The notes beneath the pieces were generated by a model. It made no database searches and was not told the DNA's origin. It was given only the letters and a program-made list of their open reading frames with translations. Positions 40,867 to 53,146 of a stretch of 64,000 nt of DNA are shown here, piece after piece. The translations under genes were made by a program, and so were the position numbers. This DNA comes from Lachnospiraceae bacterium AB2028 (GTDB lineage: Bacteria; Bacillota; Clostridia; Lachnospirales; Lachnospiraceae), in assembly GCA_000621425.1 (NCBI GenBank), contig KK211276.1, positions 186,001 through 250,000 of the forward strand, in the 5' to 3' direction. Position 1 is the stretch's first letter. Each line of letters begins with the position of its first letter.

Positions 40867-42186
40867 TCAGACTATGTTCGGTACTATGCCGTGTTTGATG
40901 TGCTTACGGTAAAAAAGATTTACCCCAAGGTAGAAAAAAGATGTTAGCGGTCTTCTGAAGAAATTCTTCACAAAGATGGTGCGCTTAAGTATGCTCCTAT
41001 AGGAATAAACTTCGTTATAAAGCTCCCAGTATGCCTTGGTCAGCTCCTCCGGAGTCATATTCTTAGGGATGTGAACAGCCTCGCAGGCATTGTAGGAATA
41101 CATATCCGTGTTGTAAATGCGGTTCTGCTCCTTCATCTCATCATAGAACTGTGTGCCGGGAATAGGTGTCAGGATATAAAATCTCGGCACGGTTATCTTA
41201 TTATCTTCGATAAATTTAGCCGTCGCCCTTATGGACTCCAGAGTGTCTCCCTCGGCACCCACCACCATTTCGGTGGATACATCTATACCGTATTTCCTGA
41301 TGATCTTAAGCTGTTCGGAATACTGGTCCGGATGGGCCCAGCCTTTCTGCATACCTAAAAGGCTTTCTCTGCTGATGCTTTCCAGTCCAAAGCTAAGTAC
41401 ATAGCAGCCGCTGTCCGCAACAACTTTCAATAATTCCTCATCTTTGGAAATATCAATAGAACACTGCGTCATCCAGTGCATCTTGAGCTTCTTTATTTCG
41501 CTGCAAAGTGCAAAGGCATAGTCCCTGTTTGAAAAAAGATTGTCGTCCAGCAGAAGGAACTGCTTAAAGCCCAGCTCTTTGACACGTTTTATGTCCCGGA
41601 TTACATCCGGTATCTCACGCCTCAGATACTGCCCACGGTACAGGCAGTATATTGAGCAGAAACTGCAGGTTTTAGGGCAGCCGCGGCCAGCCTGAACAGG
41701 AAGGAAATTTCCTATCTTTTTTTTCAATACCAGTTCATACCTTGGAAGGGGAGTTTCCAGCTTAGTCAGTTTCTTCTGGTATACCTTCTTAAGTGTACCG
41801 TTGCGGTAGTCCTCTATCATCTGTCCCCAGGTTTCTTCGGCGTCACCTATCATAACGCTGTCGCAGTACTTCTTTGCTTCCTCAGGCATCAGCGAAACCA
41901 TATATCCGCCAAGGATAACAGTCTTGCCCAGTTCCCTGAACTTATTTGCAATGTCAATGGTACGCATTACAGCATGTCCCATGCTGCTAATGCCTATCAG
42001 CTCCGCATCAGTGTCAAAAGGCACGTCCTCTATGGTCTCGTAGCAGAGTTCCACCTCAAAGTCATCCGGCGTAAGTGCTGCCAATAGTGGAAGAGCAAGC
42101 CCAACGAAATAAAGCCTGCTCTTTTTTACGAGATTTCCATACTGGTCGTATGGGGTAGGTTGAATTAATAAGATCTTATTTTTCAT
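40867..42186 (-). CDS. B12-binding-type radical SAM protein (distant member of the cluster)
   Basis: 439 residues. The N-terminal 140 residues have the B12-binding Rossmann pattern (LIGISSMGHAVMRTIDIANKF, VILGGYMVSLMPEEA) without the classical D-x-H-x-x-G cobalt-ligand motif. The radical SAM domain has the 4Fe-4S motif C-x3-C-x2-C at Cys170, Cys174 and Cys177 in GRGCPKTCSFCSIYCL, followed by LLLDDNLFSNRDYAF, VLSFGLESI and TEMVVGAEGDTLESI. Such enzymes often methylate unreactive carbons, but several subfamilies do other radical chemistry. This copy is more like the BchE/hopanoid-methylase type and clearly differs from the four tandem paralogues upstream. It follows the lipoprotein gene by 18 bp and ends before a terminator. 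Confidence 0.88.
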   Translation of the reverse strand: MKNKILLIQPTPYDQYGNLVKKSRLYFVGLALPLLAALTPDDFEVELCYETIEDVPFDTDAELIGISSMGHAVMRTIDIANKFRELGKTVILGGYMVSLMPEEAKKYCDSVMIGDAEETWGQMIEDYRNGTLKKVYQKKLTKLETPLPRYELVLKKKIGNFLPVQAGRGCPKTCSFCSIYCLYRGQYLRREIPDVIRDIKRVKELGFKQFLLLDDNLFSNRDYAFALCSEIKKLKMHWMTQCSIDISKDEELLKVVADSGCYVLSFGLESISRESLLGMQKGWAHPDQYSEQLKIIRKYGIDVSTEMVVGAEGDTLESIRATAKFIEDNKITVPRFYILTPIPGTQFYDEMKEQNRIYNTDMYSYNACEAVHIPKNMTPEELTKAYWELYNEVYSYRSILKRTIFVKNFFRRPLTSFFYLGVNLFYRKHIKHGIVPNIV

Positions 42187-42204
42187 TTCCTGAAAACAGT
42201 AACC

Positions 42205-42978
42205 CTATTCTTCCTCTTCGCCCCAGTCATCTGAATCGGTAGAATAAATAACCTCGCCGCTTGCTTCGTTTACAAAATCAACATGTACATTGCCAACCGC
42301 ATCTCCCGAATAAACTGAATATGTATATCCCAATGTATAGAAAGTAATGACGGACATCAGTTCGCCAAGACCCACCTCTTCATTTTTGGTCGTGACCGTA
42401 AATACTGTATAATCGTCATTATGTGTGATAGCGGTAACCTCAGGGCACTCCTCTGACCCTATCATCTCATCCAGTGCATCATCTACTGTTTTCTTTACCC
42501 CAGCCAGAAGGTCTTCATATTGGTCATTAGACATCACGAAGGTCACGCTTCCGTCGCTGTTAAGTTTGCCGGACTCATAGCCTTTTTCCTTTATAGCCGC
42601 ATCAACTGTTTCCTGGGTTGCAATATTTAAATAACCTGCAGGAAATGTGATGGTTACCTTACCAGCCTCTTTATCAACAACAACATCTGACAGGTTTTTC
42701 AGTGCATCACCAAGGGACGTGTCTGAATTGCTTTCCGGAGCATCAGTTGTTTCACTTTCATTGTCAGATACTGCATCTGCTGTTTCATCAGCAGGTGCCT
42801 CTGTCACTTCTTCCGCTTCTTCTGTTGCCTCAGCCGTTTCAGTTTCTTCAGTTGTTTCGGTTTCAGCCGCTTCAGTGCTCTGTGCAGAAGTGTCAACATC
42901 AGGCTTTATCGAGCATCCTGCAAGCGTTGTCAGTGCAAGAACCGCAGTCATCATAAATACAATAATTCTCTTTTTCAT
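42205..42978 (-). CDS. Lipoprotein of unknown function with Thr/Glu/Ala-rich linker
   Basis: 257 residues. A type II signal peptide ends in the lipobox LAGC (lipidated Cys22). Residues about 30-85 are a low-complexity Thr/Glu/Ala/Asp linker that would hold the rest away from the membrane. The C-terminal 160 residues form a mixed alpha/beta domain (VTITFPAGYLNIATQETVDAAIKEKGYES in parts) ending in an acidic tail. I do not recognise the domain. It has its own promoter, a good ribosome site and is followed closely by the fifth radical SAM gene, so the two may be expressed separately from the upstream cluster. Confidence 0.75.
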   Translation of the reverse strand: MKKRIIVFMMTAVLALTTLAGCSIKPDVDTSAQSTEAAETETTEETETAEATEEAEEVTEAPADETADAVSDNESETTDAPESNSDTSLGDALKNLSDVVVDKEAGKVTITFPAGYLNIATQETVDAAIKEKGYESGKLNSDGSVTFVMSNDQYEDLLAGVKKTVDDALDEMIGSEECPEVTAITHNDDYTVFTVTTKNEEVGLGELMSVITFYTLGYTYSVYSGDAVGNVHVDFVNEASGEVIYSTDSDDWGEEEE

Positions 42979-43043
42979 TTTTTCCTTTCTGCCATTTTTA
43001 ATGGCAATCCCTCCCCTTTATATTTTTTTTAATCATAGCATTC

Positions 43044-43071
43044 ATTATATTATTATGTTTTCAAATATCAA
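43044..43071 (-). promoter_or_regulatory. Promoter of the lipoprotein / fifth radical SAM unit
   Basis: On the minus strand TTGATA (43071-43066) and a perfect TATAAT (43049-43044) are 16 bases apart, about 65 bp upstream of the lipoprotein start and downstream of the preceding radical SAM gene. Confidence 0.7.
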
Positions 43072-43108
43072 TCCCAAACTTTGTATCCTCATCAAAAGGT
43101 GCATTCCA

Positions 43109-44479
43109 TTACAGCACGATCATCCTTTTCAGCTTCACAAAGAACACCTTTATGATATACAGAACTGCCCCGGGGTAGTTATTGTCTTTATATAAAGGGG
43201 ACTTCCGGTTCTTGAAGGCAAGACCTAAGGAAAGCTTGTAATACTCCCTTGTAAATGCTCCCACGCTCATATGCTCAGGTTTCAGAAGGCAGTGGAAAAG
43301 ATCCTGCTTGGTCACATCCCGGTCTATCATCTGATCCTCGTATTTCTTGTACATGGCAGAGCCCTGCATAGGTGTAAATACAGAAACGGTCGGGATAATG
43401 TTCCTTGCCGCGATCCAGTTGTAAAGCTTTTTAAAATCCTCTTTGGTCATTCCAGGGTGGACTATAAAAAGCCCGGCGCAGATCACATTATTTTCAGAAA
43501 GGATACGTATGCATTCTTCATTCTCTGAAACAGTGACCCTCTTGTTATAGGAATCCAGCTCTTCCTCGCTGGTGGCTTCCAGCCCCACCATTATAAGCGA
43601 AAGACCGATCTCAGCAAACTCCTTTATTATGTCTTCATTATGAGCGATAAAATCTGCCCTTCCGTAGATCAGATATTTCTTATGAATATCTTTTTCTTTT
43701 ATAAGACGAATAAACTCTTTCAGGTAATCCCGGTCTATCAGGAAGTCATCATCCGTTATATGAATAGCCGGCACATCAAGGGATGCTATCTCATCTACCA
43801 GGCTCTCCACGCTCCTGCAGGCATAGCGTCCACTGTTCCTGTTAGTGCAGAAACAGAAATTGCAGGCCTTCCTGCAGCTGTAGGAATTCTTTACCAGAGC
43901 AAGCGGCCTGAAACACAGGTACCTGAAACGATGCTTATTTTTATAAAAATATGTTCTGTCAGGAACCGGAAGATCGGCCGGCGTCTCCACCACCTTGGGA
44001 TTGACTACCCACTCACCGTTTTCTCGGTAACAGATTCCGGGGATATCTTTTAAAGAAATGGATGTATTCCCATGTTTCTCCTGCTCTATATAGCTGACAA
44101 GTTTTTTCTGGTTTTCCAGTCCGCTAAGGTGATAAAGAAAGTCAGCCTTCGACTCAAAATAATTCGCATAATTTATTTCAACATTCGATCCGCCTAAAAT
44201 GATCTGTATCTTCGGATCATAGGACTTTATCACATCGCAGTACTTTATCACCAGTTTCTGCTGTGTTATATAACCTGTAACACAGACCACATCCGGCTTA
44301 ACTTCCTTAAGCTTCTTCTTCATGGAAGTAAGCTCATACCTTCTGTCGTAAATGACCGCATGATGCCCCATGGCGGTGAATACCGTATAGAGATACTCCA
44401 TCTCCAACGGTTCATGCTCCACCAGATATGTATAACTGAATATTCCTACAGTCTCAGGTTTTATCAGGAGTATGTTCAT
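43109..44479 (-). CDS. B12-binding-type radical SAM protein, tandem paralogue 4
   Basis: 456 residues. An N-terminal Rossmann-type domain (MNILLIKPET, HEPLEMEYLYTVFTAMGH, VVCVTGYITQQ, IILGGSNVEINY) resembles B12-binding domains but lacks D-x-H-x-x-G. The cluster motif is Cys202, Cys206 and Cys209 in YSCRKACNFCFC, with a further Cys two residues on. Shared with the three neighbouring paralogues are the ITDDDFLIDRDYLKEF block, YGRADFIAHNEDIIKEF, LIMVGLEATSEEELDSYNKRV and a C-terminal TPMQGSAMYKKYE segment. The reaction and substrate are unknown. It is translationally coupled to the gene upstream by a 4-bp overlap and is the last gene of the four-member array. Confidence 0.88.
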   Translation of the reverse strand: MNILLIKPETVGIFSYTYLVEHEPLEMEYLYTVFTAMGHHAVIYDRRYELTSMKKKLKEVKPDVVCVTGYITQQKLVIKYCDVIKSYDPKIQIILGGSNVEINYANYFESKADFLYHLSGLENQKKLVSYIEQEKHGNTSISLKDIPGICYRENGEWVVNPKVVETPADLPVPDRTYFYKNKHRFRYLCFRPLALVKNSYSCRKACNFCFCTNRNSGRYACRSVESLVDEIASLDVPAIHITDDDFLIDRDYLKEFIRLIKEKDIHKKYLIYGRADFIAHNEDIIKEFAEIGLSLIMVGLEATSEEELDSYNKRVTVSENEECIRILSENNVICAGLFIVHPGMTKEDFKKLYNWIAARNIIPTVSVFTPMQGSAMYKKYEDQMIDRDVTKQDLFHCLLKPEHMSVGAFTREYYKLSLGLAFKNRKSPLYKDNNYPGAVLYIIKVFFVKLKRMIVL

Positions 44480-45801
44480 TGATTGTTCCTGTACTTACGA
44501 TTAAACATATGGGTTATCCCGGCCCAGTAAATGCGCGGATAATTTACATAGTACAAAAAGTGGAATTCCAGCTTGAACAGAAGCATAGGCATACTGCTCG
44601 GTTTCATCAGCACACTGGTTCCACCGGTCCTTCTGTATGTATAGTTGTAAAGCCTGTCCTTGTTTTCCTCATATACGCTTGTCCCCTTAAAGGGAATAAG
44701 TATACTGAAGAGAACCCAGATCAGTCCTTCATCCCTTATGAACTTGTTTATGTTCATGAAATCCTTATGCTTGAAATCATAGTTGATAACAAAGAGACCC
44801 ACGCAGAGCATATTGTGTTCTCTTAATATGCGGACAGCATTCTTGTTGATTACCACACTTGAATTTTTATTGTATTTTTCAAGGGTAGAATCCTCCACTG
44901 CTTCCAGTCCCACCAGCATGTCCCGGATGCCTGCCTTGTAAATAAGCGGCATGATATCCTCGCAATTTACAATGCTGTCTGCCCTGGAAAAAATCATAAA
45001 GGTCTTGTGACAGCCCAGCGCCAAAAGCCTTTCGCAGAATTCCTTAACACGATCCTTATTTACCAGAAAATCATCATCTATGATAAAGATCTTGTCATTA
45101 TCAAGATTAACGATTTCATTTATCACATCATCCAGCTCCCTTACCCTATAGGCACAGCTGTTGAACTGCCTGGATATGCAGAACTTACAGTTCTGCGGAC
45201 AGGAGAAAGCCGTCTTCATCATGGAAAAACAGCCCTTTGCCAGCACCTTAAATTTATCCCTATTGTCATAGAAGTGACTTCTGTCCGGCAGTATCCCGTA
45301 ATCGCTTACAGGCTCGCCCTTAAGATTCTGCACCCAGTTTCCGTTTTCATCCCGGAATGAAATACCGCTGCATTTCTTAAGTGTTTCGATCTCCATATCA
45401 TTCCTGACAGCAAGACGAAAAGAATCAAGACCGTTGTCATAAGAAACATAATCAACTTCATCCAGCAGGAAGTCTTCATGATTAATAACCACTTCCGGAC
45501 CTCCTACCATTATCTTTACATCGGGGCGTTTTTTTCTTAAGAATTTTATGAGTTTCAGAACATACCAGGCTGTATTGGACATAACAGAAAAACCGGCAAC
45601 GGTAACACCGTTGTTATCTATTTTTTTTAAGAGCCTGGAATATCTTCCTATGGGGCTCTCTATGCTCTCGTCATAGATAAAGCCCTCCCTATCCTCTGCC
45701 TTGACACAGGCCATAAGGTACTCAAGCCCCAGGGGTTCTAAGCTTGCCACTCTCTTATCGTAATGAACTCTCACAAACATGTATTTCTGTTTCATGATCA
45801 A
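44476..45801 (-). CDS. B12-binding-type radical SAM protein, tandem paralogue 3
   Basis: 441 residues with the same build as its neighbours. The N-terminal segment has LEPLGLEYLMACVKA and IMVGGPEVVINHEDFL, and the middle has SYDNGLDSFRLAV. The 4Fe-4S motif is Cys201, Cys205 and Cys208 in FSCPQNCKFCISRQF. IFIIDDDFLVNKDRVKEFC, IFSRADSIVNCEDIM and MLVGLEAVEDSTLEKYNKNSS follow. The B12 cobalt-ligand motif is missing. It overlaps the flanking paralogues by 4 bp on each side, so the three are made from one message with coupled translation. The array probably arose by duplication, and the members may act on the same pathway. Confidence 0.88.
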   Translation of the reverse strand: MIMKQKYMFVRVHYDKRVASLEPLGLEYLMACVKAEDREGFIYDESIESPIGRYSRLLKKIDNNGVTVAGFSVMSNTAWYVLKLIKFLRKKRPDVKIMVGGPEVVINHEDFLLDEVDYVSYDNGLDSFRLAVRNDMEIETLKKCSGISFRDENGNWVQNLKGEPVSDYGILPDRSHFYDNRDKFKVLAKGCFSMMKTAFSCPQNCKFCISRQFNSCAYRVRELDDVINEIVNLDNDKIFIIDDDFLVNKDRVKEFCERLLALGCHKTFMIFSRADSIVNCEDIMPLIYKAGIRDMLVGLEAVEDSTLEKYNKNSSVVINKNAVRILREHNMLCVGLFVINYDFKHKDFMNINKFIRDEGLIWVLFSILIPFKGTSVYEENKDRLYNYTYRRTGGTSVLMKPSSMPMLLFKLEFHFLYYVNYPRIYWAGITHMFNRKYRNNQ

Positions 45802-47141
45802 AACCAGCCTGTTCTCTTTGTGTCATAACCTGTGCCGAAAAATGTCCTGACCATTATCTTCGGATAGGTCAGCACATGTATCCAGTAGTAACGGAACATA
45901 TACTCAAGGGACGACATATTAGTCGGTTTGATGGTGATGTGTGTTCCGTCAAGCCTCCATGATTTGAAATGAACTACCATATCCTTGTATTCATCATAGG
46001 CATCAGTCCCCTTGTAGGGGGTAAATATTCCAAATACCACCCAAAGAAGGTTATTGTCTTTGATAAATTTCATAAGATTACGGAAATCTTTTCTTGTAGC
46101 CGTATAGCTTATTACAAAAAGTCCGTCACAGACTATATTGTTATCCAGGAGATTTTTTATAGCCCTTTCATTTATCTCCTTTGAAGTCTGTTTGTTATAC
46201 TCATCCAGCAATTCATCCGTAATAGCCTCAAGTCCCACAAGAATATCCCTGAATCCCGCTTCATACGCAAGCGGCAGCACATCAGGATTCTCTGCAATAA
46301 AGTCAGCCCTGGCGTATGCCATGAACTCCTTCTTTATTCCCCTCCGTATCACCTCATTGCAGAACTCTATGACACGCTCCTTGTGGAAGAAGAATGTATC
46401 ATCAACAAACCATACTTTGTCGTGCTTAAGTTCTTCCAGCTCATCCAGGACTTCATTCATGTCACGCTCAGTGTATACACCACTGTTCATCTTCGTGCAG
46501 TAACAGAAACTGCAATTAAACGGGCAGGAAAAAGATGCTTTGCTAAGAGCATATTTCCCCTTCATGAAAATATAATTCTTCTTAAGTCCTCTGTAGAAAG
46601 CGGTCCTGTCAGGTTTATTTATAAAACCACAGACCGGATCCCCTTTTTCTTTTACGACCCACTCGCCGTCCTTCTTGAAAGCAATGCCTGTCTGCTTGTC
46701 CATTACATCAATATCAAGGCCTGCTGACCAGATTGCCTTTAAAGACCTCAACCCATTATCGTAATAAACTATGTCGATATCATCAGTCAGAAACTCACGA
46801 TAATTCATCTCCGCTTCCGGGCCGCCCACCATTATGGTTATTCCCTGGAATTTCTGTTTAAGCTGCTTCGCCCTTTTTGTTATGTAGTCAACAGTATTCG
46901 CATTTGCATTCAGCCCGACAAAATTATATCCACCCTTCTTAATGATGCGGCACATTCTGCTGAAACGGAAAGTCCAGGGCCTGTCAAACTCATCATGTAT
47001 CTCGCAGGGAATCCCCAGCTCCTTCGCCAGCCCCGCAAGATACTCCAGCCCTAACGGTTCCAGATGTGCCACCAGGGATGAATACTTCGGACGTATGAGA
47101 AGAACTTTCAGCTCTTTTTTTGAATCATTTAACTGTGACAT
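45798..47141 (-). CDS. B12-binding-type radical SAM protein, tandem paralogue 2
   Basis: 447 residues. LKVLLIRPKYSSLVAHLEPLG opens the B12-binding-type domain, with VGLNANANTVDYITKRAKQ and IMVGGPEAEMNYREFL. The cluster-binding cysteines are Cys206, Cys210 and Cys213 in FSCPFNCSFCYC. VWFVDDTFFFHKERVIEFC, YARADFIAENPDVLPLAY and ILVGLEAITDELLDEYNKQTS are the conserved paralogue blocks, and FGIFTPYKGTDAYDEYKD lies near the C-terminus. It is closest to paralogue 3 by eye (GGPE and YYDNGL motifs are shared). No function is assigned beyond radical SAM chemistry. Confidence 0.88.
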   Translation of the reverse strand: MSQLNDSKKELKVLLIRPKYSSLVAHLEPLGLEYLAGLAKELGIPCEIHDEFDRPWTFRFSRMCRIIKKGGYNFVGLNANANTVDYITKRAKQLKQKFQGITIMVGGPEAEMNYREFLTDDIDIVYYDNGLRSLKAIWSAGLDIDVMDKQTGIAFKKDGEWVVKEKGDPVCGFINKPDRTAFYRGLKKNYIFMKGKYALSKASFSCPFNCSFCYCTKMNSGVYTERDMNEVLDELEELKHDKVWFVDDTFFFHKERVIEFCNEVIRRGIKKEFMAYARADFIAENPDVLPLAYEAGFRDILVGLEAITDELLDEYNKQTSKEINERAIKNLLDNNIVCDGLFVISYTATRKDFRNLMKFIKDNNLLWVVFGIFTPYKGTDAYDEYKDMVVHFKSWRLDGTHITIKPTNMSSLEYMFRYYWIHVLTYPKIMVRTFFGTGYDTKRTGWF

Positions 47142-47154
47142 ATAAACTCTCTTT

Positions 47155-48531
47155 CTATCTCCGTTTCCGCTCCCCCATGATCAGTTTCTTCCAGTACTGG
47201 TTATTTACCATAGCGGCTCCCCATGTCAGTTTAAGGGTGTCATGCAGTCCGTATTTCTTCACCATATACCACCAGCTTACAGGATTGGCAGTGATCAGAT
47301 AATACAGAACCATCGTATACCAGTAATACCGTCTTACGGAAATGTGGTCCGGCCGCACCACCAGATGTGCCAGGTCCCACTTCTCGTACTCATCTTCTCC
47401 CACGATAAATCTCGGCCTGTATTTCTCGTAAATGTCGGTCCCGCGAAGGGGTGTCAGCGGCTGAAGGTTTACGAATACCAGCCCCAACTTTTTTATCCAT
47501 TTATGAAGAGCCGAGAAATCCGCCCATGTCCAGTCAAGTCCCAGGATAAAAGTCCCGTAGCATTCGACATCATATTTCCTGAGTGTGCCGACCGCCTTTT
47601 CATTTATCTCCACGTTTGTACGCTTGTTGTAATCATCCAGCTGCCTGCTGTCGCAGGATTCAAGGCCTACTATGACAGCCCGCAGTCCTACTTCCTTAAA
47701 ACGTTTGATGACATCATCGTTTGCTGCTATAAAATCCGCCCTGCCGTATATCAGGTATTTTTTCATAATCCCACGTTTTTCCAGCAGGTCGCAGAATTCC
47801 AGTATACGATTTCTATCTACAAGGAAATCATCATCCACAATATATATTTCAGTCTCCTTAATAGATTCCAATTCCTCCACTATACTTTCAAGACTTCTGG
47901 CAAAATACTGGTCATCCATTATCTGTCTGCAAAAACAGAACTTGCAGTTGTAGGGACATCCGAAAGATGTCTTTATAAGGCTGCAGTTCCTGTGGAACAT
48001 GTAATAATATTTTGAACGGTATATGTCCACCTTGCTTCTGTCCGGAAAACGGTAATCAAATACAGTATCCTTTTTAGGTGCAGGCTTTTCCCCGGAATAA
48101 ACGCACTCTATTTCTTTTTCCGGCTTTTTTCCTTCCAGGGAATTCAGGATATCTATAAAGGTCCTGATACCGTTAGCACGTATTATAAAATCCACATATT
48201 CACTTTCAAAATCTCCCGGATTAACCTCCGCATGCACACCACCGATAATGGTCTTGATGTTCGGATCCACTTCCTTGGCCTTTTTAGCATAGTCCTTCAT
48301 GATATTCACATGAGAGATATATCCTGTGATTCCCACCACATCAGGCACATACTTTTTCACAAAATACTTCACATCTTTTTTTTCGATGATCATATCGATT
48401 ATGGTGCATGTATGCCCCAACGGTTCTATATTTGCGGAAATATACTCAAGCTCCAAGGGCTCGCAGATCATAACATTCTGCAGTCCTATGGTCTCTTTAT
48501 CCGGTCTTGGTCTGAATAAAAGTACGTTCAT
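47155..48531 (-). CDS. B12-binding-type radical SAM protein, tandem paralogue 1
   Basis: 458 residues. MNVLLFRPRPDKETIG and EPLELEYISANIEPLGHTC start the Rossmann domain; VVGITGYISHVNIMKDY and TIIGGVHAEVNPGDFE complete it. The 4Fe-4S ligands are Cys192, Cys196 and Cys199 in FGCPYNCKFCFCRQ. IYIVDDDFLVDRNRILEFC, YGRADFIAANDDVIKRF and VIVGLESCDSRQLDDYNKRTN match the other paralogues, and LQPLTPLRGTDIYEKY is the C-terminal block. It is closest to paralogue 4 by the shared ITGYI and GG-x-x-E motifs. It is the first of the four, 47 bp after the acyltransferase-like gene. Confidence 0.88.
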   Translation of the reverse strand: MNVLLFRPRPDKETIGLQNVMICEPLELEYISANIEPLGHTCTIIDMIIEKKDVKYFVKKYVPDVVGITGYISHVNIMKDYAKKAKEVDPNIKTIIGGVHAEVNPGDFESEYVDFIIRANGIRTFIDILNSLEGKKPEKEIECVYSGEKPAPKKDTVFDYRFPDRSKVDIYRSKYYYMFHRNCSLIKTSFGCPYNCKFCFCRQIMDDQYFARSLESIVEELESIKETEIYIVDDDFLVDRNRILEFCDLLEKRGIMKKYLIYGRADFIAANDDVIKRFKEVGLRAVIVGLESCDSRQLDDYNKRTNVEINEKAVGTLRKYDVECYGTFILGLDWTWADFSALHKWIKKLGLVFVNLQPLTPLRGTDIYEKYRPRFIVGEDEYEKWDLAHLVVRPDHISVRRYYWYTMVLYYLITANPVSWWYMVKKYGLHDTLKLTWGAAMVNNQYWKKLIMGERKRR

Positions 48532-48578
48532 TAGTTCCTCTGATATCTTGATTCAGAATATATCATTCCTAAAAAATG

Positions 48579-49640
48579 TCATCCCATCCGGAATACTTTA
48601 AAATCCGGAAAATCATATCTGTATTCAAGCAATCTCTTTCCCAATATTGCAAACATATTCAGGAAGGGATTTGTGTGGTGCGCATAAAAGTATCTCTTTG
48701 ACAGTTCCGCGCCGAACTTCATTTTTGTAAGCTCCGATGTCTGTCCGAAGTCTATGATCTTTTTATTCTTCTCAATAGCAAACCCGACTATGTGAAGCAG
48801 CATGAAGAAATACAGATCTGCAGTATTTGCCATGCATTCGTAATCCATTCCGCAGAACTGGAAAACCAGCTTTTCACCTTCCTCATGCAGCAGTACGAAA
48901 CCGGCAGCCTTATCATCTTTTACGAATACCAGCCTTGTGCCTTCGCTTTCTTCAAAAAACTTTCTGTCCAGGCATTCCAGCTTATACTCTGATTTCCGGT
49001 ATGTATTTAAATACAGCGGGTAAATATCCCAGCTGTCGTTTTTCATGCTCCCCTCTGATACTTCAACCCTATATACGCTGATATCGCTGCATCGTTTCTC
49101 TGCCAGTCTTATCCTTCTTCTGTACTGGCTGCGCAATGATGCCACATAATCATCTATCGTGCGGTATTCATCTTTTATCGGCAGCACGCAGCTCGGCAGT
49201 GTCTCACCGAAACCCATGCCCTTTATTTCTACCGGCTCATCCACATTTAAGATAAGCTTACCGCCCTTTATCCTTTTGCAGTACGAAAGCAGAAATTCAA
49301 GGTCATTGGTTATATAACCGCTGTTGCTCAATGAACAGGGAAACCCGATAGTCTTTACATTCATCATCCATTCAGAATTCCCCAATGTCATTATATTCAT
49401 CCGGCTTTCATAGATTATGAAAAAAGCAAAGCTTTCACCGGATTCAATGTAGTGGTATGTCTGCCTGAAAGGATTTGTCTCCTTAAGCAGCTTTAGCATC
49501 CCTTCCGTATACGGATATTTTAATTCACAGAACACAGGCCTTTTTTTCAGAAAAGCAAACATATCATCCGGCTGCTCACAGCTGAAAACCTTTATCCTGT
49601 CTTTTTCGTTTTTAACCGATTTCTTTTTCATATACGGCAT
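48579..49640 (-). CDS. GNAT/FemAB-like acyltransferase, Acetyltransf_6 type
   Basis: 353 residues (an ATG three codons later is equally possible; neither has a clear ribosome site, so translation is probably coupled to the upstream gene, whose last 29 bp it overlaps). DDYVASLRSQYRRRIRLAEKRC followed by YPLYLNTYRKSEYKLECLDRKFFEE, AAGFVLLHEEGEKLVFQFCGMDYE and KIIDFGQTSELTKMKFGAEL are hallmarks of the double-GNAT proteins related to FemAB and the BioF2-like acetyltransferases. These transfer aminoacyl or acyl groups to amines. In this context it may take its acyl group from the ACP encoded two genes upstream. The C-terminal aromatic HHTNPFLNMF segment may touch the membrane. Confidence 0.75.
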   Translation of the reverse strand: MPYMKKKSVKNEKDRIKVFSCEQPDDMFAFLKKRPVFCELKYPYTEGMLKLLKETNPFRQTYHYIESGESFAFFIIYESRMNIMTLGNSEWMMNVKTIGFPCSLSNSGYITNDLEFLLSYCKRIKGGKLILNVDEPVEIKGMGFGETLPSCVLPIKDEYRTIDDYVASLRSQYRRRIRLAEKRCSDISVYRVEVSEGSMKNDSWDIYPLYLNTYRKSEYKLECLDRKFFEESEGTRLVFVKDDKAAGFVLLHEEGEKLVFQFCGMDYECMANTADLYFFMLLHIVGFAIEKNKKIIDFGQTSELTKMKFGAELSKRYFYAHHTNPFLNMFAILGKRLLEYRYDFPDFKVFRMG

Positions 49641-50703
49641 AGTGCTTATATCGTCCGTCCGTTATCATCTCGCAGATACTGTTTGAATCTTCGTTCTCCT
49701 CCAGTATCCAGGACGACTCCATAAAGGAGCAGTTATAATTTGATAATGTCTGATATACACAGTCAACAAGCGCCACCGGAAGTCCGCAGCCCCTGTATTC
49801 ATCAAGCACTCCCCATTCCATGACCTTGACTGTCTTTATCTTTTTTCCTTTAAGCTTATTCAGGAAAAAGTGCTTTGTTCCAAAGGATTCCCCCGGCTTT
49901 GCCAGTTCATTATAATCAGGATACCAGAGGATGAACCCCACAGGCCTATCACCGTCAAAAGCAAAATAAAGTGAGTCCTCGTTTATAAAGAAAAACAGTT
50001 CCTTCAGCATCTCCAGGTCATCTTCATAATCCCTGTGATAATAATATCTATGTTCAGTGAAACATGCATTGTTAAGATCGGTATACGCTTTTGCATAATA
50101 CTCAAATTTTCTTTTATCAAAAGTCCTGAAATCATACTTGCGTCTGAGCTTAGATATCAGAGCACTGTACCTGTCCAGCTTGTGGTCGAGTGTTTGTGCA
50201 TAATAAGAATTCAGCTTTATGGTCTGACAGCCCAGCCCCTTAAAATACTCGTTATAGTACTCTGCATTTCCGGGAGAAGAAAACGAATTCACCTTATCAT
50301 AATGTGAAGCAAGAAATCCCAGACCGTAATTAACATGTCCTGAAAGCCCTATAACGATCCTTTTGCAGCCATATTCCCTGCCAAGTTTAGCAGCATGATC
50401 AAGCAGCATTTCAACCGCATCCCTGCAGCCTTCCAGCGTTTCGAAAAAACATACCTGTACATATTCAGGAAGTAACGGTGCATATGCGATGATTGCTTCA
50501 CAGAGTACATTTTCTCCGTCATCCAGTATCATGACCGGCGTGATCTTAAGCCCTTTGGTAAAATGAAGCTTCTCTGCAAAGATCGTCTCTATCATATAAT
50601 AACTATTGTCAATGTACCTGGCTTCGCTTTTATATTTTTTTTCACGAAAGGAAAGAAACTGCTTTTTTTCTTTTTTTCCTTCAACGACCTTAATCTGCAT
50701 CAT
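49612..50703 (-). CDS. GNAT-like N-acyltransferase
   Basis: 363 residues. The N-terminal half has VKVVEGKKEKKQFLSFREKKYKS-type sequence and RIVIGLSGHVNYGLGFL. The C-terminal half is a GNAT domain with SLYFAFDGDRPVGFILWYPDYNEL (beta-4) and VMEWGVLDEYRGCGLPVALVDCVY, where R-G-C-G-L fits the acyl-CoA or acyl-carrier loop. It overlaps the ACP gene by 14 bp at its start and the next acyltransferase by 29 bp at its end, so all three are tightly coupled. A plausible role is transfer of an ACP-bound acyl chain to an amine, but this is inferred from neighbours. Confidence 0.75.
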   Translation of the reverse strand: MMQIKVVEGKKEKKQFLSFREKKYKSEARYIDNSYYMIETIFAEKLHFTKGLKITPVMILDDGENVLCEAIIAYAPLLPEYVQVCFFETLEGCRDAVEMLLDHAAKLGREYGCKRIVIGLSGHVNYGLGFLASHYDKVNSFSSPGNAEYYNEYFKGLGCQTIKLNSYYAQTLDHKLDRYSALISKLRRKYDFRTFDKRKFEYYAKAYTDLNNACFTEHRYYYHRDYEDDLEMLKELFFFINEDSLYFAFDGDRPVGFILWYPDYNELAKPGESFGTKHFFLNKLKGKKIKTVKVMEWGVLDEYRGCGLPVALVDCVYQTLSNYNCSFMESSWILEENEDSNSICEMITDGRYKHYAVYEKEIG

Positions 50704-50923
50704 TCCCTACCAGCGTTTCCAGATAATCACAAAGCTCACCTACCGTAACGATATGAATATACTTTTCCTCATCCAGTTCCACTCCGTATTTTTCCTCAAA
50801 GATACAGATAAGATTAAGGAAATCAAAGGAACTGAGTCCCAGTTCTTTTTTAAAATTGGTCTCTTGGCTGATACCGGTGATGTGGTATTCTTCATCAAGT
50901 ATTTTTTTTATCTCATCAAACAT
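50690..50923 (-). CDS. Acyl carrier protein
   Basis: 77 residues, the standard size. The phosphopantetheine-attachment motif appears as KELGLSSFDFLNLICIFEEKYGVEL, where Ser32 occupies the position of the Ser in D-S-L. The change from D-S-L-D to S-S-F-D is unusual and marks it as a specialised carrier rather than the fatty-acid-synthesis AcpP. The four-helix pattern with acidic helix 2 is present. The gene lies 21 bp downstream of the adenylating ligase and overlaps the first acyltransferase, which points to loading by the ligase and delivery to the acyltransferases. Confidence 0.88.
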   Translation of the reverse strand: MFDEIKKILDEEYHITGISQETNFKKELGLSSFDFLNLICIFEEKYGVELDEEKYIHIVTVGELCDYLETLVGNDAD

Positions 50924-50944
50924 ATACTCACCTTATCTCCAATA

Positions 50945-52516
50945 CTATGAATATAATTTTCTGATTATCTTCTTTGAACTGTTCTTCTGAAATTCTTCCG
51001 CCATGATCTCGTAATCATCTATCCTCATATATGACGGCAGACTTTCATTCAACGCTTTCAGGTCTTCTTTGAACTTTTTCTCATTCTGCTTGCCGTTCTC
51101 TCCCAAGTAAACCTTTGCACAGACAATGCTTACATTGTTTACCCGCTTTGATACCACCAGACTTTCTTCCACTTCATCGAAGGAATTGATCTTGGCCTCA
51201 AGATATTCCGGAGCAATATTTTCGCCATTTTCCGTAATGATCAGATTCTTTTTACGTCCGGTGATAAATACCAGCTTTCCCAAGGTATAGCCTATGTCTC
51301 CGGTCTTAAAATATTCACCTGACATTGCTGCACGTGTTGTTTCCTCGTCCTTATAATAGCCCAGCATTACATTAGGACCCTTAACTAATAATTCACCGTC
51401 TTCTGCCACCTTGACATCTATGTTTTTCATAATTGTTCCGGCACTTCCGGGAACATTATTGATAGTCCGACTAACAGCTATAGTAGGCGAGCATTCAGTC
51501 AGGCCATACCCGTTAAGGATCGTGATACCAATCTCATCAAACTTATCCACATATTCCCTACGGAGTGGCGCACCGCCACTAACCACCAGCCTAAGCCTTG
51601 GCGTAATGATATTGCCAAAGAATTTATGCCGCAGGTCTATTCCGACTTTTCGAAGGGCATTACTCAGTTTAATAAGACGCTGAAGTGATTTCTCTTTGTT
51701 CTGCTTCTTAGCTTCCCTTAATATATTGTCATACATTCCTTCGATGACCATAGGCACCGCACCAAAAAAGAAGGGATCAAAAGCCTTGATGTCCCTGAAC
51801 AGTTTCTTTACATCGCGGTTGATGCATAGCGTTGTACCGTTATATAAGGTTGCAAGTATGCAGGGATTAAATCCGTAGGTATGGTGCATGGGAAGAAATG
51901 AAAGAGTCGGGGATTCAAGCACATTATTCTCAAGCGTACCCCTGATGTTAGTTATCACATTATACTGTGTCAGCATTACACCCTTCATCCGTCCGTCAGT
52001 ACCGGAAGTAGATGCAAGCACCGCAAAGCGGTCTTTATTTGTCTTTTGGGTTTCTTCAAAGAATTGAGTGACAGAAGTTTCCGTTTTTAGGATGTCCTGA
52101 AAATCCCGGTCTATATTAAACTCTTTTATTCCTTTTTCCCGGTCTATTTTCTTTGCGGTTTTATCTGTAACAAAGACAGCCGACACATCGAAGCGTTCCA
52201 TCATTTCACTTAAGACACCGGGCTCCGCCTCACGGTCCAAAGGAACTATTACCGCATCAAGTATTGTTGCCAGATAGATTATTATGTATTCATATCTATT
52301 CTCAGACAATATGGCAATATGCTTTCTGCTCAGTCCTTCCTTTTGCAGGAACGCATAAACCGCAGCCACTCTCTCAACCATTTCAGAATATGTGACATCA
52401 ATAATCTTGTCACCTTCAAAATAGCGCAAAGCAATCACATCAGAAGATTCTTCATATCTTCCTCTTAGCATTGCCGAAAAATCGTCATATATTACTGTAT
52501 TCAGGTACTGTTCCAT
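50945..52516 (-). CDS. AMP-dependent acyl ligase (fatty-acyl-AMP / acyl-ACP synthetase type)
   Basis: 523 residues of the adenylate-forming superfamily. ASTSGTDGRMKGVMLTQYN is the phosphate-binding loop, LNGYGLTECSPTIA the A5 motif, YFKTGDIGYTLGKLVFITGRKKNLIITENGENIAPEYLEA the A7-A8 hinge region, and SSKKIIRKLY ends with the A10 lysine context. The missing CoA-binding landmarks are compatible with loading an ACP instead of CoA, and a dedicated ACP follows directly. The substrate is likely a fatty or other carboxylic acid. It starts 6 bp after yigZ and heads the biosynthetic part of the cluster. Confidence 0.9.
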   Translation of the reverse strand: MEQYLNTVIYDDFSAMLRGRYEESSDVIALRYFEGDKIIDVTYSEMVERVAAVYAFLQKEGLSRKHIAILSENRYEYIIIYLATILDAVIVPLDREAEPGVLSEMMERFDVSAVFVTDKTAKKIDREKGIKEFNIDRDFQDILKTETSVTQFFEETQKTNKDRFAVLASTSGTDGRMKGVMLTQYNVITNIRGTLENNVLESPTLSFLPMHHTYGFNPCILATLYNGTTLCINRDVKKLFRDIKAFDPFFFGAVPMVIEGMYDNILREAKKQNKEKSLQRLIKLSNALRKVGIDLRHKFFGNIITPRLRLVVSGGAPLRREYVDKFDEIGITILNGYGLTECSPTIAVSRTINNVPGSAGTIMKNIDVKVAEDGELLVKGPNVMLGYYKDEETTRAAMSGEYFKTGDIGYTLGKLVFITGRKKNLIITENGENIAPEYLEAKINSFDEVEESLVVSKRVNNVSIVCAKVYLGENGKQNEKKFKEDLKALNESLPSYMRIDDYEIMAEEFQKNSSKKIIRKLYS

Positions 52517-52522
52517 ATGTAT

Positions 52523-53146
52523 CTACCAGTCGATCTCCACCGGTCTCGGATCGGATATCTCTATTTTCCCGCCTGTCAGATCCTTAAGTTTTTTTATCGC
52601 ATCATCATATGCTGACTGCTCAAAAGCGCAGGTATAGGTCACATCTGCACCATATTCCTGTGCGCATATCCTTGCATCAGCAGCCTCGATATAATTCTTT
52701 ACAGCACCCACATCAGCATAGGAAAAAACTATATCGGTTTCCAGTCCTGCACGTATAGGAACTATCTCACTGACAGCTATCGCTTCCTTCAGTGCCTGCG
52801 TATATGCCCTTACCAGACCGCCGGTTCCTAAAAGCGTCCCGCCAAAATACCTGGTGACTACCACAACCGCATCATGAATCCCCTCGGAAACCAATGTTTC
52901 CAGCAGCGGACGCCCTGCTGTTCCCGACGGTTCCCCGTCATCAGAGCATCTGGATATCTCATTATTTTTCCCTATCACAAAGGCATAGCAATTGTGTTTC
53001 GCATCCCAGTACTGTTTCTTTATGGACGCGATCAGCTCAGATGCCTCATTCTCGTCCTTTACGGGACATAGCCTGGCTATGAAACGGGATTTCTTTTCTT
53101 CATATTCACCGATACCCTCGGTCCTTACGATCCTGTACTCTGCCAT
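52523..53146 (-). CDS. yigZ: YigZ/IMPACT family protein
   Basis: 207 residues. EYEEKKSRFIARLCPVKDENEASELI, AKHNCYAFVIGKNNEISRCSDDGEPSGTAGRPLL and VTRYFGGTLLGTGGLVRAYTQALKEAI are typical of the IMPACT N-domain, and the C-terminal DUF1949-like domain follows. The family is related to yeast YIH1/IMPACT and has a ribosomal S5-like fold; its bacterial role is not settled. It is the first gene downstream of a promoter and only 6 bp from the adenylating ligase. It is probably a housekeeping gene to which the biosynthetic cluster is appended rather than a pathway member. Confidence 0.9.
   Translation of the reverse strand: MAEYRIVRTEGIGEYEEKKSRFIARLCPVKDENEASELIASIKKQYWDAKHNCYAFVIGKNNEISRCSDDGEPSGTAGRPLLETLVSEGIHDAVVVVTRYFGGTLLGTGGLVRAYTQALKEAIAVSEIVPIRAGLETDIVFSYADVGAVKNYIEAADARICAQEYGADVTYTCAFEQSAYDDAIKKLKDLTGGKIEISDPRPVEIDW

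Follow-up and report, generated by a model that had tools for sequence, protein, structure and literature searches.

A conserved quartet of acyltransferase and radical SAM genes in a Lachnospiraceae genome, and a candidate pathway to acyl amines

The window analyzed here is a 64-kb stretch of DNA from Lachnospiraceae bacterium AB2028 (contig KK211276.1, positions 186,001 to 250,000). One strand holds genes for an acyl ligase (LIG), a stand-alone acyl carrier protein (ACP), two acyltransferase-type proteins (GNAT and FemAB) and five B12-type radical SAM proteins (rSAM1 to rSAM5), a set that was claimed in a preliminary description and is confirmed by the open frames together with Pfam and NCBIfam matches. 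These genes form a genuine, conserved system whose constant core is the quartet of GNAT, FemAB, rSAM1 and rSAM5, and not the part that the preliminary description stressed. What is observed comprises the genes, the families or folds of their products, how they co-occur and how they divide into core and accessory members. The chances are evenly balanced that this operon makes an N-acylated amine or aminolipid whose carbon skeleton is modified by radical enzymes. The preliminary description knew of no pathway with this gene set, and narrow sets of search terms returned neither a description nor an assigned product from the open literature; a description elsewhere is possible.

The constant core and its variable partners

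Co-occurrence of the core genes was found at three levels of relatedness. Among 391 sampled Clostridia genomes, FemAB orthologues are present in 13, and these are the same 13 genomes that carry rSAM5. Searches of this sample scored the best four or five first-look candidates per genome, and absences hold within that limit. The rSAM5 search matched 27 genomes at E 1e-70, and the 13 that were counted comprise 12 with scores above 500 bits (520-943 bits) and a contig-edge fragment of 298 bits in G686; the best scores in the 14 uncounted genomes were 244-277 bits. Within 35 species of the same genus, GNAT occurs in 16, rSAM5 in 15 and FemAB in 15, with all three in 14 species and none in 19. One of these congener searches matched 18 genomes, three of which (G310, G314 and G316, 253-259 bits) were not counted. 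The exceptions are G320, which lacks both FemAB and the ligase, and G317, a 72%-complete genome without rSAM5, where the cluster is cut by the end of a contig. In G315, FemAB is retained but lies on another contig amid unrelated genes.

Scanning an rSAM5 alignment against genome contigs provided the broadest comparison. The best 80 of at least 104 relatives were kept, so that the spread is a lower bound; counts from this set refer to loci L056-L135 only, and some contigs are duplicated elsewhere (e.g. L037/L056, L098/L141 and L099/L142). Fifty-four of the 80 loci have at least 7.5 kb on both sides; the quartet was counted in these and not in the other 26, where one flank or both fall short of that length. 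The full quartet is present in 52 of the 54 well-flanked loci (49 by open reading frame calling and L081, L118 and L135 by tblastn), and rSAM1 is present in all 54. The remaining two are L058, which starts at FemAB and is undecidable, and L104. The L104 locus (Electrothrix) has orthologues of rSAM1 and rSAM5 and, as checked by tblastn, neither GNAT nor FemAB. Eleven annotated loci consist of the quartet alone in the order GNAT, FemAB, rSAM1, rSAM5. Arrangement differs greatly from locus to locus, but the genes remain together as a set. That unrelated genes lie in tandem by chance is excluded by the co-occurrence in the congeners, the Clostridia sample and the 80 loci.

Carriers of the cluster span several phyla and include both gut and environmental bacteria. 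The nearest rSAM5 records are titled Lachnospiraceae, and the record titles of quartet loci include Clostridia, Fibrobacteres, Gastranaerophilales, Desulfobacterota and others. Among the 80 loci, titles include Clostridium, Alkaliphilus, Acetivibrio, Sedimentibacter, Desulfosporosinus, Fibrobacter, Gastranaerophilales, Desulfobulbus and Desulfarculales; many of these records are metagenome bins and are possibly misassigned.

According to the preliminary description, the cluster reading would fail if the genes did not co-occur across related genomes. Co-occurrence was strongly borne out for both acyltransferases, rSAM1 and rSAM5, whereas the ligase, ACP and rSAM2 to rSAM4 are variable and the order is reshuffled. 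At the score thresholds set in the script, the ligase is present in 17 of the 80 loci and the ACP in 12. By record title, 14 of the 17 ligase loci are Lachnospiraceae or Butyrivibrio and the other three are an uncultured Ruminococcus, an Oscillospiraceae bin and a Fibrobacter bin. The ligase was counted in 11 of the 35 congeners, from 15 matching genomes of which G004, G314, G321 and G324 (best 360-411 bits) were left out; no ligase orthologue is present in G308, G325, G329 and G320, and the G311 copy is divergent. The ligase and ACP are a dispensable add-on found mostly in Lachnospiraceae.

In two genomes of the same family, loci L025 (7762-10273) and L026 (9107-12125) hold a ligase and a weakly similar GNAT, with an ACP also in L026, and no gene matching the radical SAM proteins of the window lies within the stretches fetched. 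These may be a simpler acyl-amine locus.

The encoded proteins and known systems

All five radical SAM proteins have B12-binding and Radical_SAM Pfam domains, the B12-binding match of rSAM5 being slightly under the cut-off (30.7 vs 32.1 bits), and all conserve the CX3CX2C motif. Among the matches listed, none reaches the cut-off of any named NCBIfam family. A search of the host genome with rSAM1 at E 0.001 gave five matches only, which are rSAM1 itself and rSAM2 to rSAM5. The rSAM5 protein is the most conserved product of the cluster, with 79-98% identity in near relatives and 60% in the divergent locus L051. In a tree of 82 proteins from 24 chosen loci, rSAM1 to rSAM5 each form a clade of their own, supported at 0.72 (core rSAM1) to 1.0, and these clades are common to distant loci; further accessory clades still carry the best-hit labels rSAM1 or rSAM4. 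The idea that a single radical SAM gene was recently duplicated in tandem was rejected on this tree. The genes rSAM2 (18 of the 80 loci), rSAM3 (16) and rSAM4 (14), counted at the same script thresholds, are ancient paralogues that come and go between loci. In L098 (Acetivibrio mesophilus) and L099, rSAM4, rSAM3 and rSAM2 lie on the opposite strand, divergent from rSAM1 and rSAM5, which suggests that they form a separate module.

Comparison with characterized radical SAM families gave distant similarity. HpnR and related class B (B12) enzymes share the domain order, but the best score against HpnR (TIGR04367) is 179 bits, for rSAM1, vs a cut-off of 650, and the window differs in having five such genes in one cluster. 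No hopanoid gene was recognized in the operon, where no search aimed at hopanoid genes was made. Best scores against the Ladderane-type, BchE, HpnJ and PhpK families were 78, 136, 89 and 91 bits vs cut-offs of 360, 481, 578 and 600, respectively.

The GNAT protein belongs, by full-length profile alignment, to the YghO family (hhalign probability 99.5%, over 349 columns with the K-12 protein and 357 with the BL21 protein). A published study assigns yghO/CC_1154, located beside aasR and acpR, to N-acylation in ceramide synthesis (PMC9386255). The Rhodobacterial ceramide module of Caulobacter and E. coli B (AasR, AcpR and Aca/bCerS, i.e. YghO) resembles the window in keeping a dedicated ligase and ACP together with a YghO-family N-acyltransferase at one locus. 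However, the window ligase is 24% identical to AasR over 331 columns, the window ACP is not alignable by BLASTP, and the cluster adds FemAB and the radical SAM genes. NCBIfam places the ligase among acyl-CoA-ligase-type adenylating enzymes, under every curated cut-off among the 25 matches listed. The attachment motif of the ACP had been called atypical; it is slightly unusual, but the serine is kept in all 12 relatives compared, preceded by S, N, T or D and followed by F.

Ceramide is unlikely as the product because no serine palmitoyltransferase-family gene was found. None of the 35 congeners matches TIGR01825 at E 1e-20, whereas 8 of 14 control genomes match, two of them over the cut-off, and ceramide synthesis by a known serine palmitoyltransferase was rejected on this search. 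With the E. coli B enzyme as query, run without control genomes, no congener matched at E 1e-10. In E. coli K-12 (L136:11044-12216), yghO lies beside IS5, with no ligase, ACP or serine palmitoyltransferase gene annotated in the stretch shown; in BL21 (L149:21283-26886), it is next to genes for a fatty acyl-AMP ligase, an epimerase, an ACP and serine palmitoyltransferase.

FemAB carries the two-domain GNAT fold of FemABX, which is the fold of aminoacyl-tRNA transferases, and its Pfam matches to FemAB_like and Acetyltransf_6 are both slightly under the cut-off. This fold is shared with FemX, MprF and the streptothricin-type transferases (e.g. Sba18), but FemAB has no sequence match in the PDB at E 0.1 and its use of aminoacyl-tRNA is putative. 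N-acyl amino acid synthases of the FeeM family (PF21926) provide a further comparison; one relative cluster, L102, holds such a gene, whereas none of the ten window proteins matches PF21926 (Pfam, E 0.1).

A candidate pathway and its alternatives

We infer each catalytic step, the order of steps, the acceptor and the product as follows. The ligase would adenylate a free carboxylic acid and load it onto the dedicated ACP, from which the YghO-type GNAT would move the acyl group to an amine. The FemABX-fold protein could then add a second unit, most likely a tRNA-borne aminoacyl group as FemX, MprF and streptothricin-type synthases do, or else a second acyl group. The rSAM5 and rSAM1 proteins would perform two obligatory changes at unactivated carbons, and rSAM2, rSAM3 and rSAM4 may make further changes, probably C-methylations. 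The acyl-amine reading of the preliminary description is strengthened by the YghO match of GNAT and by the published role of AasR and AcpR, the neighbors of YghO (PMC9386255). It is qualified by the dispensability of the ligase and ACP, and the radical enzymes may act on the acyl chain, the amino part or something else.

Additional genes in relative loci agree, in a few cases, on acyl and amino-acid chemistry. The quartet locus in L102 (5363-13985) includes the FeeM-family gene and a phosphatidylserine-decarboxylase-family gene between rSAM5 and another radical SAM gene, with junctions that overlap or are under 10 bp. Pyridoxal phosphate-dependent decarboxylases of the Orn/DAP/Arg family lie by core genes in L097 (13306-14448), L114 (13284-14456), L080 (1388-2560) and L146 (4735-5892), with Pfam run on the L097, L080 and L146 proteins. 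In L085 (11665-21305), a megasynthase with AMP-binding, ACP and ketosynthase domains follows rSAM5 by 356 bp, together with a second protein of 1919 amino acids, and a class I methyltransferase is present in 32 of the 80 loci. Such add-on cases are few, and Orn/DAP/Arg-family decarboxylases often have housekeeping roles as well. A more specific and tentative proposal, with somewhat less than even odds, is that the quartet is the unvarying core for an undescribed class of N-acyl aminolipids spanning several phyla. Two obligatory B12-radical reactions would build their carbon skeleton, and combinations of at least three further ancient radical SAM paralogues, with a class I methyltransferase, would decorate it in a lineage-specific manner.

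Rather than a structural membrane lipid, the product could be a diffusible lipo-amino-acid or lipopeptide-like natural product, such as a signal or antibiotic, in which an acyl chain and aminoacyl-tRNA-derived units are tailored by radical enzymes. This is unlikely but has several observations in its favor, namely the patchy distribution among the congeners, the variable set of tailoring genes, the best fold match of FemAB to aminoacyl-tRNA-dependent antibiotic synthases, the megasynthase of L085, the FeeM-family gene of L102 and the permease-like genes after the core in L087 and L115. Clustering of operon neighbors, however, gave no transporter or regulator recurring in more than two loci, and a cell-retained membrane product is weakly favored, as somewhat likelier than a secreted one, because no transporter recurs more widely. 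The transporter cases are an ABC ATPase in L039 and L108 and the permease-like gene of L115 (2622-3560) with its look-alike in L087 (11534-12472, 208 bp after rSAM5), both of which resemble DMT/EamA proteins by eye.

A product other than a lipid is improbable. The quartet would in that case modify a cofactor, RNA or protein, with GNAT and FemAB transferring short acyl or aminoacyl groups. The solved structures closest to GNAT are tandem GNATs, including MAB_4324 and the acetyltransferase mycothiol synthase, rSAM5 resembles MiaB and RimO at low score, and the core does not depend on a dedicated ligase or ACP. Against this stand the YghO likeness of GNAT over its full length and the ligase/ACP, FeeM, phosphatidylserine-decarboxylase and ketosynthase add-ons, which indicate acyl chemistry. 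Improbable to at least the same degree is a membrane-spanning or macrocyclic aminolipid for which the radical enzymes would link two acyl chains, or cyclize one, in the manner of Mss, Tes or GrsA-type lipid enzymes. Rumen Butyrivibrio are said to make diabolic acids, which counts in favor of coupling, but when rSAM1 and rSAM5 profiles were searched against the PDB, the matches up to E 10 included no entry named Tes, of which the PDB presumably holds a structure; the Tes and Mss sequences were not compared directly. Two papers also favor coupling, with radical SAM proteins reported in Tes reactions and in the cyclization of glycerol dialkyl glycerol tetraethers, and Mss reported to couple fatty acids (PMC8941075; PMC11868695).

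If the acyl-amine proposal is correct, lipid surveys may have overlooked a family of radical-tailored acyl amines or aminolipids made by anaerobic bacteria of gut and sediment. The presence and absence of the cluster among the 35 congeners would make the product directly findable by comparative lipidomics, and the natural series of B12-radical enzymes in one pathway would be useful for studying the evolution of site choice.

Layout of the locus and neighboring genes

Ten open frames on the minus strand run from 52516 to 40867 (Table 1). Spacings in transcriptional order are 21 bp (LIG-ACP), -14 (ACP-GNAT), -29 (GNAT-FemAB), 47 (FemAB-rSAM1), 13 (rSAM1-rSAM2), -4 (rSAM2-rSAM3), -4 (rSAM3-rSAM4), 130 (rSAM4-lipoprotein) and 18 (lipoprotein-rSAM5). 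The earlier statement that most of the core is spaced by 21 bp or less, or overlaps, is correct, with the FemAB-rSAM1 gap as the single exception within the core.

Table 1. Genes of the cluster in the window, in transcriptional order.
Gene	Description	Positions	Strand	Basis
LIG	Acyl-AMP ligase (acyl-CoA/acyl-ACP synthetase family)	50945..52516	-	NCBIfam; adjoins cluster ACP in relatives
ACP	Dedicated acyl carrier protein, Ser in LGLSSFD	50690..50923	-	PP-binding domain (Pfam PF00550, 2.1e-8)
GNAT	Tandem-GNAT N-acyltransferase, YghO family; core	49612..50703	-	Acetyltransf_1 (Pfam), YghO alignment
FemAB	FemABX/MprF-fold transferase; core	48579..49640	-	Fold match
rSAM1	B12-binding radical SAM protein; core	47155..48531	-	Pfam, tree
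rSAM2	B12-binding radical SAM protein; accessory paralogue	45798..47141	-	Pfam, tree
rSAM3	B12-binding radical SAM protein; accessory paralogue, sister clade of rSAM2	44476..45801	-	Pfam, tree
rSAM4	B12-binding radical SAM protein; accessory paralogue	43109..44479	-	Pfam, tree
	Small lipoprotein-like gene	42205..42978	-	Putative signal, read by eye
rSAM5	B12-type radical SAM protein; core, most conserved gene	40867..42186	-	Identity to relatives

Two genes within the interval given by the preliminary description do not belong to the cluster. The lipoprotein-like gene, although inside the operon here, has no Pfam match and no homologue in the operon-neighbor clustering. A gene at 52523-53146, which we take to be YigZ-like, lies 6 bp upstream of the ligase; this adjacency is limited to the window and three closely similar loci (L036-L038). 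Genes downstream of rSAM5 for a 480-amino-acid GNAT and a 468-amino-acid protein were also rejected as members, since among the compared loci they lie next to the cluster only in L037 and L038. Unrelated lipoprotein-like genes occur within or at the end of other clusters (L050:2965-3738, L043:2964-4022 and L044:1753-2826), and that of L063, from the same family as the L043 gene, has leucine-rich repeats.

Control of the cluster by a cobalamin riboswitch was rejected, as none is present in the window and one was found in only one of seven relative loci (L071, about 3 kb downstream of rSAM5). The host genome has one such riboswitch, away from the locus and near what are presumably ABC transport and cobalamin synthesis genes, and its presence counts in favor of the acyl-amine proposal. 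In L071 (6700-8794) and L072 (7305-9435), genes for an ABC-type ATPase, a CobW-type GTPase and a putative iron-sulfur cluster protein lie between the other radical SAM genes and rSAM5; they perhaps act in B12 or cluster reactivation, with Pfam run on the L072 copies. A role in anti-phage defense was not favored, the PADLOC matches being weak. When nine proteins were scanned, three of the five radical SAM proteins matched one model, PDC-M51A, at 26-42 bits in a library without a cut-off, and the other six proteins had no match at E 1e-5. No viral carrier was found in one scan of viral contigs with GNAT alone, which reached close relatives only. In L054 (6009-9969), a contig-edge rSAM1-like gene lies by genes for a CDP-alcohol phosphatidyltransferase and an NTP-transferase/Fe-ADH fusion, which suggests a lipid head-group locus. 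The window also contains a TwoAYGGAY RNA at 706-864 on the plus strand (81.6 bits vs a gathering score of 43).

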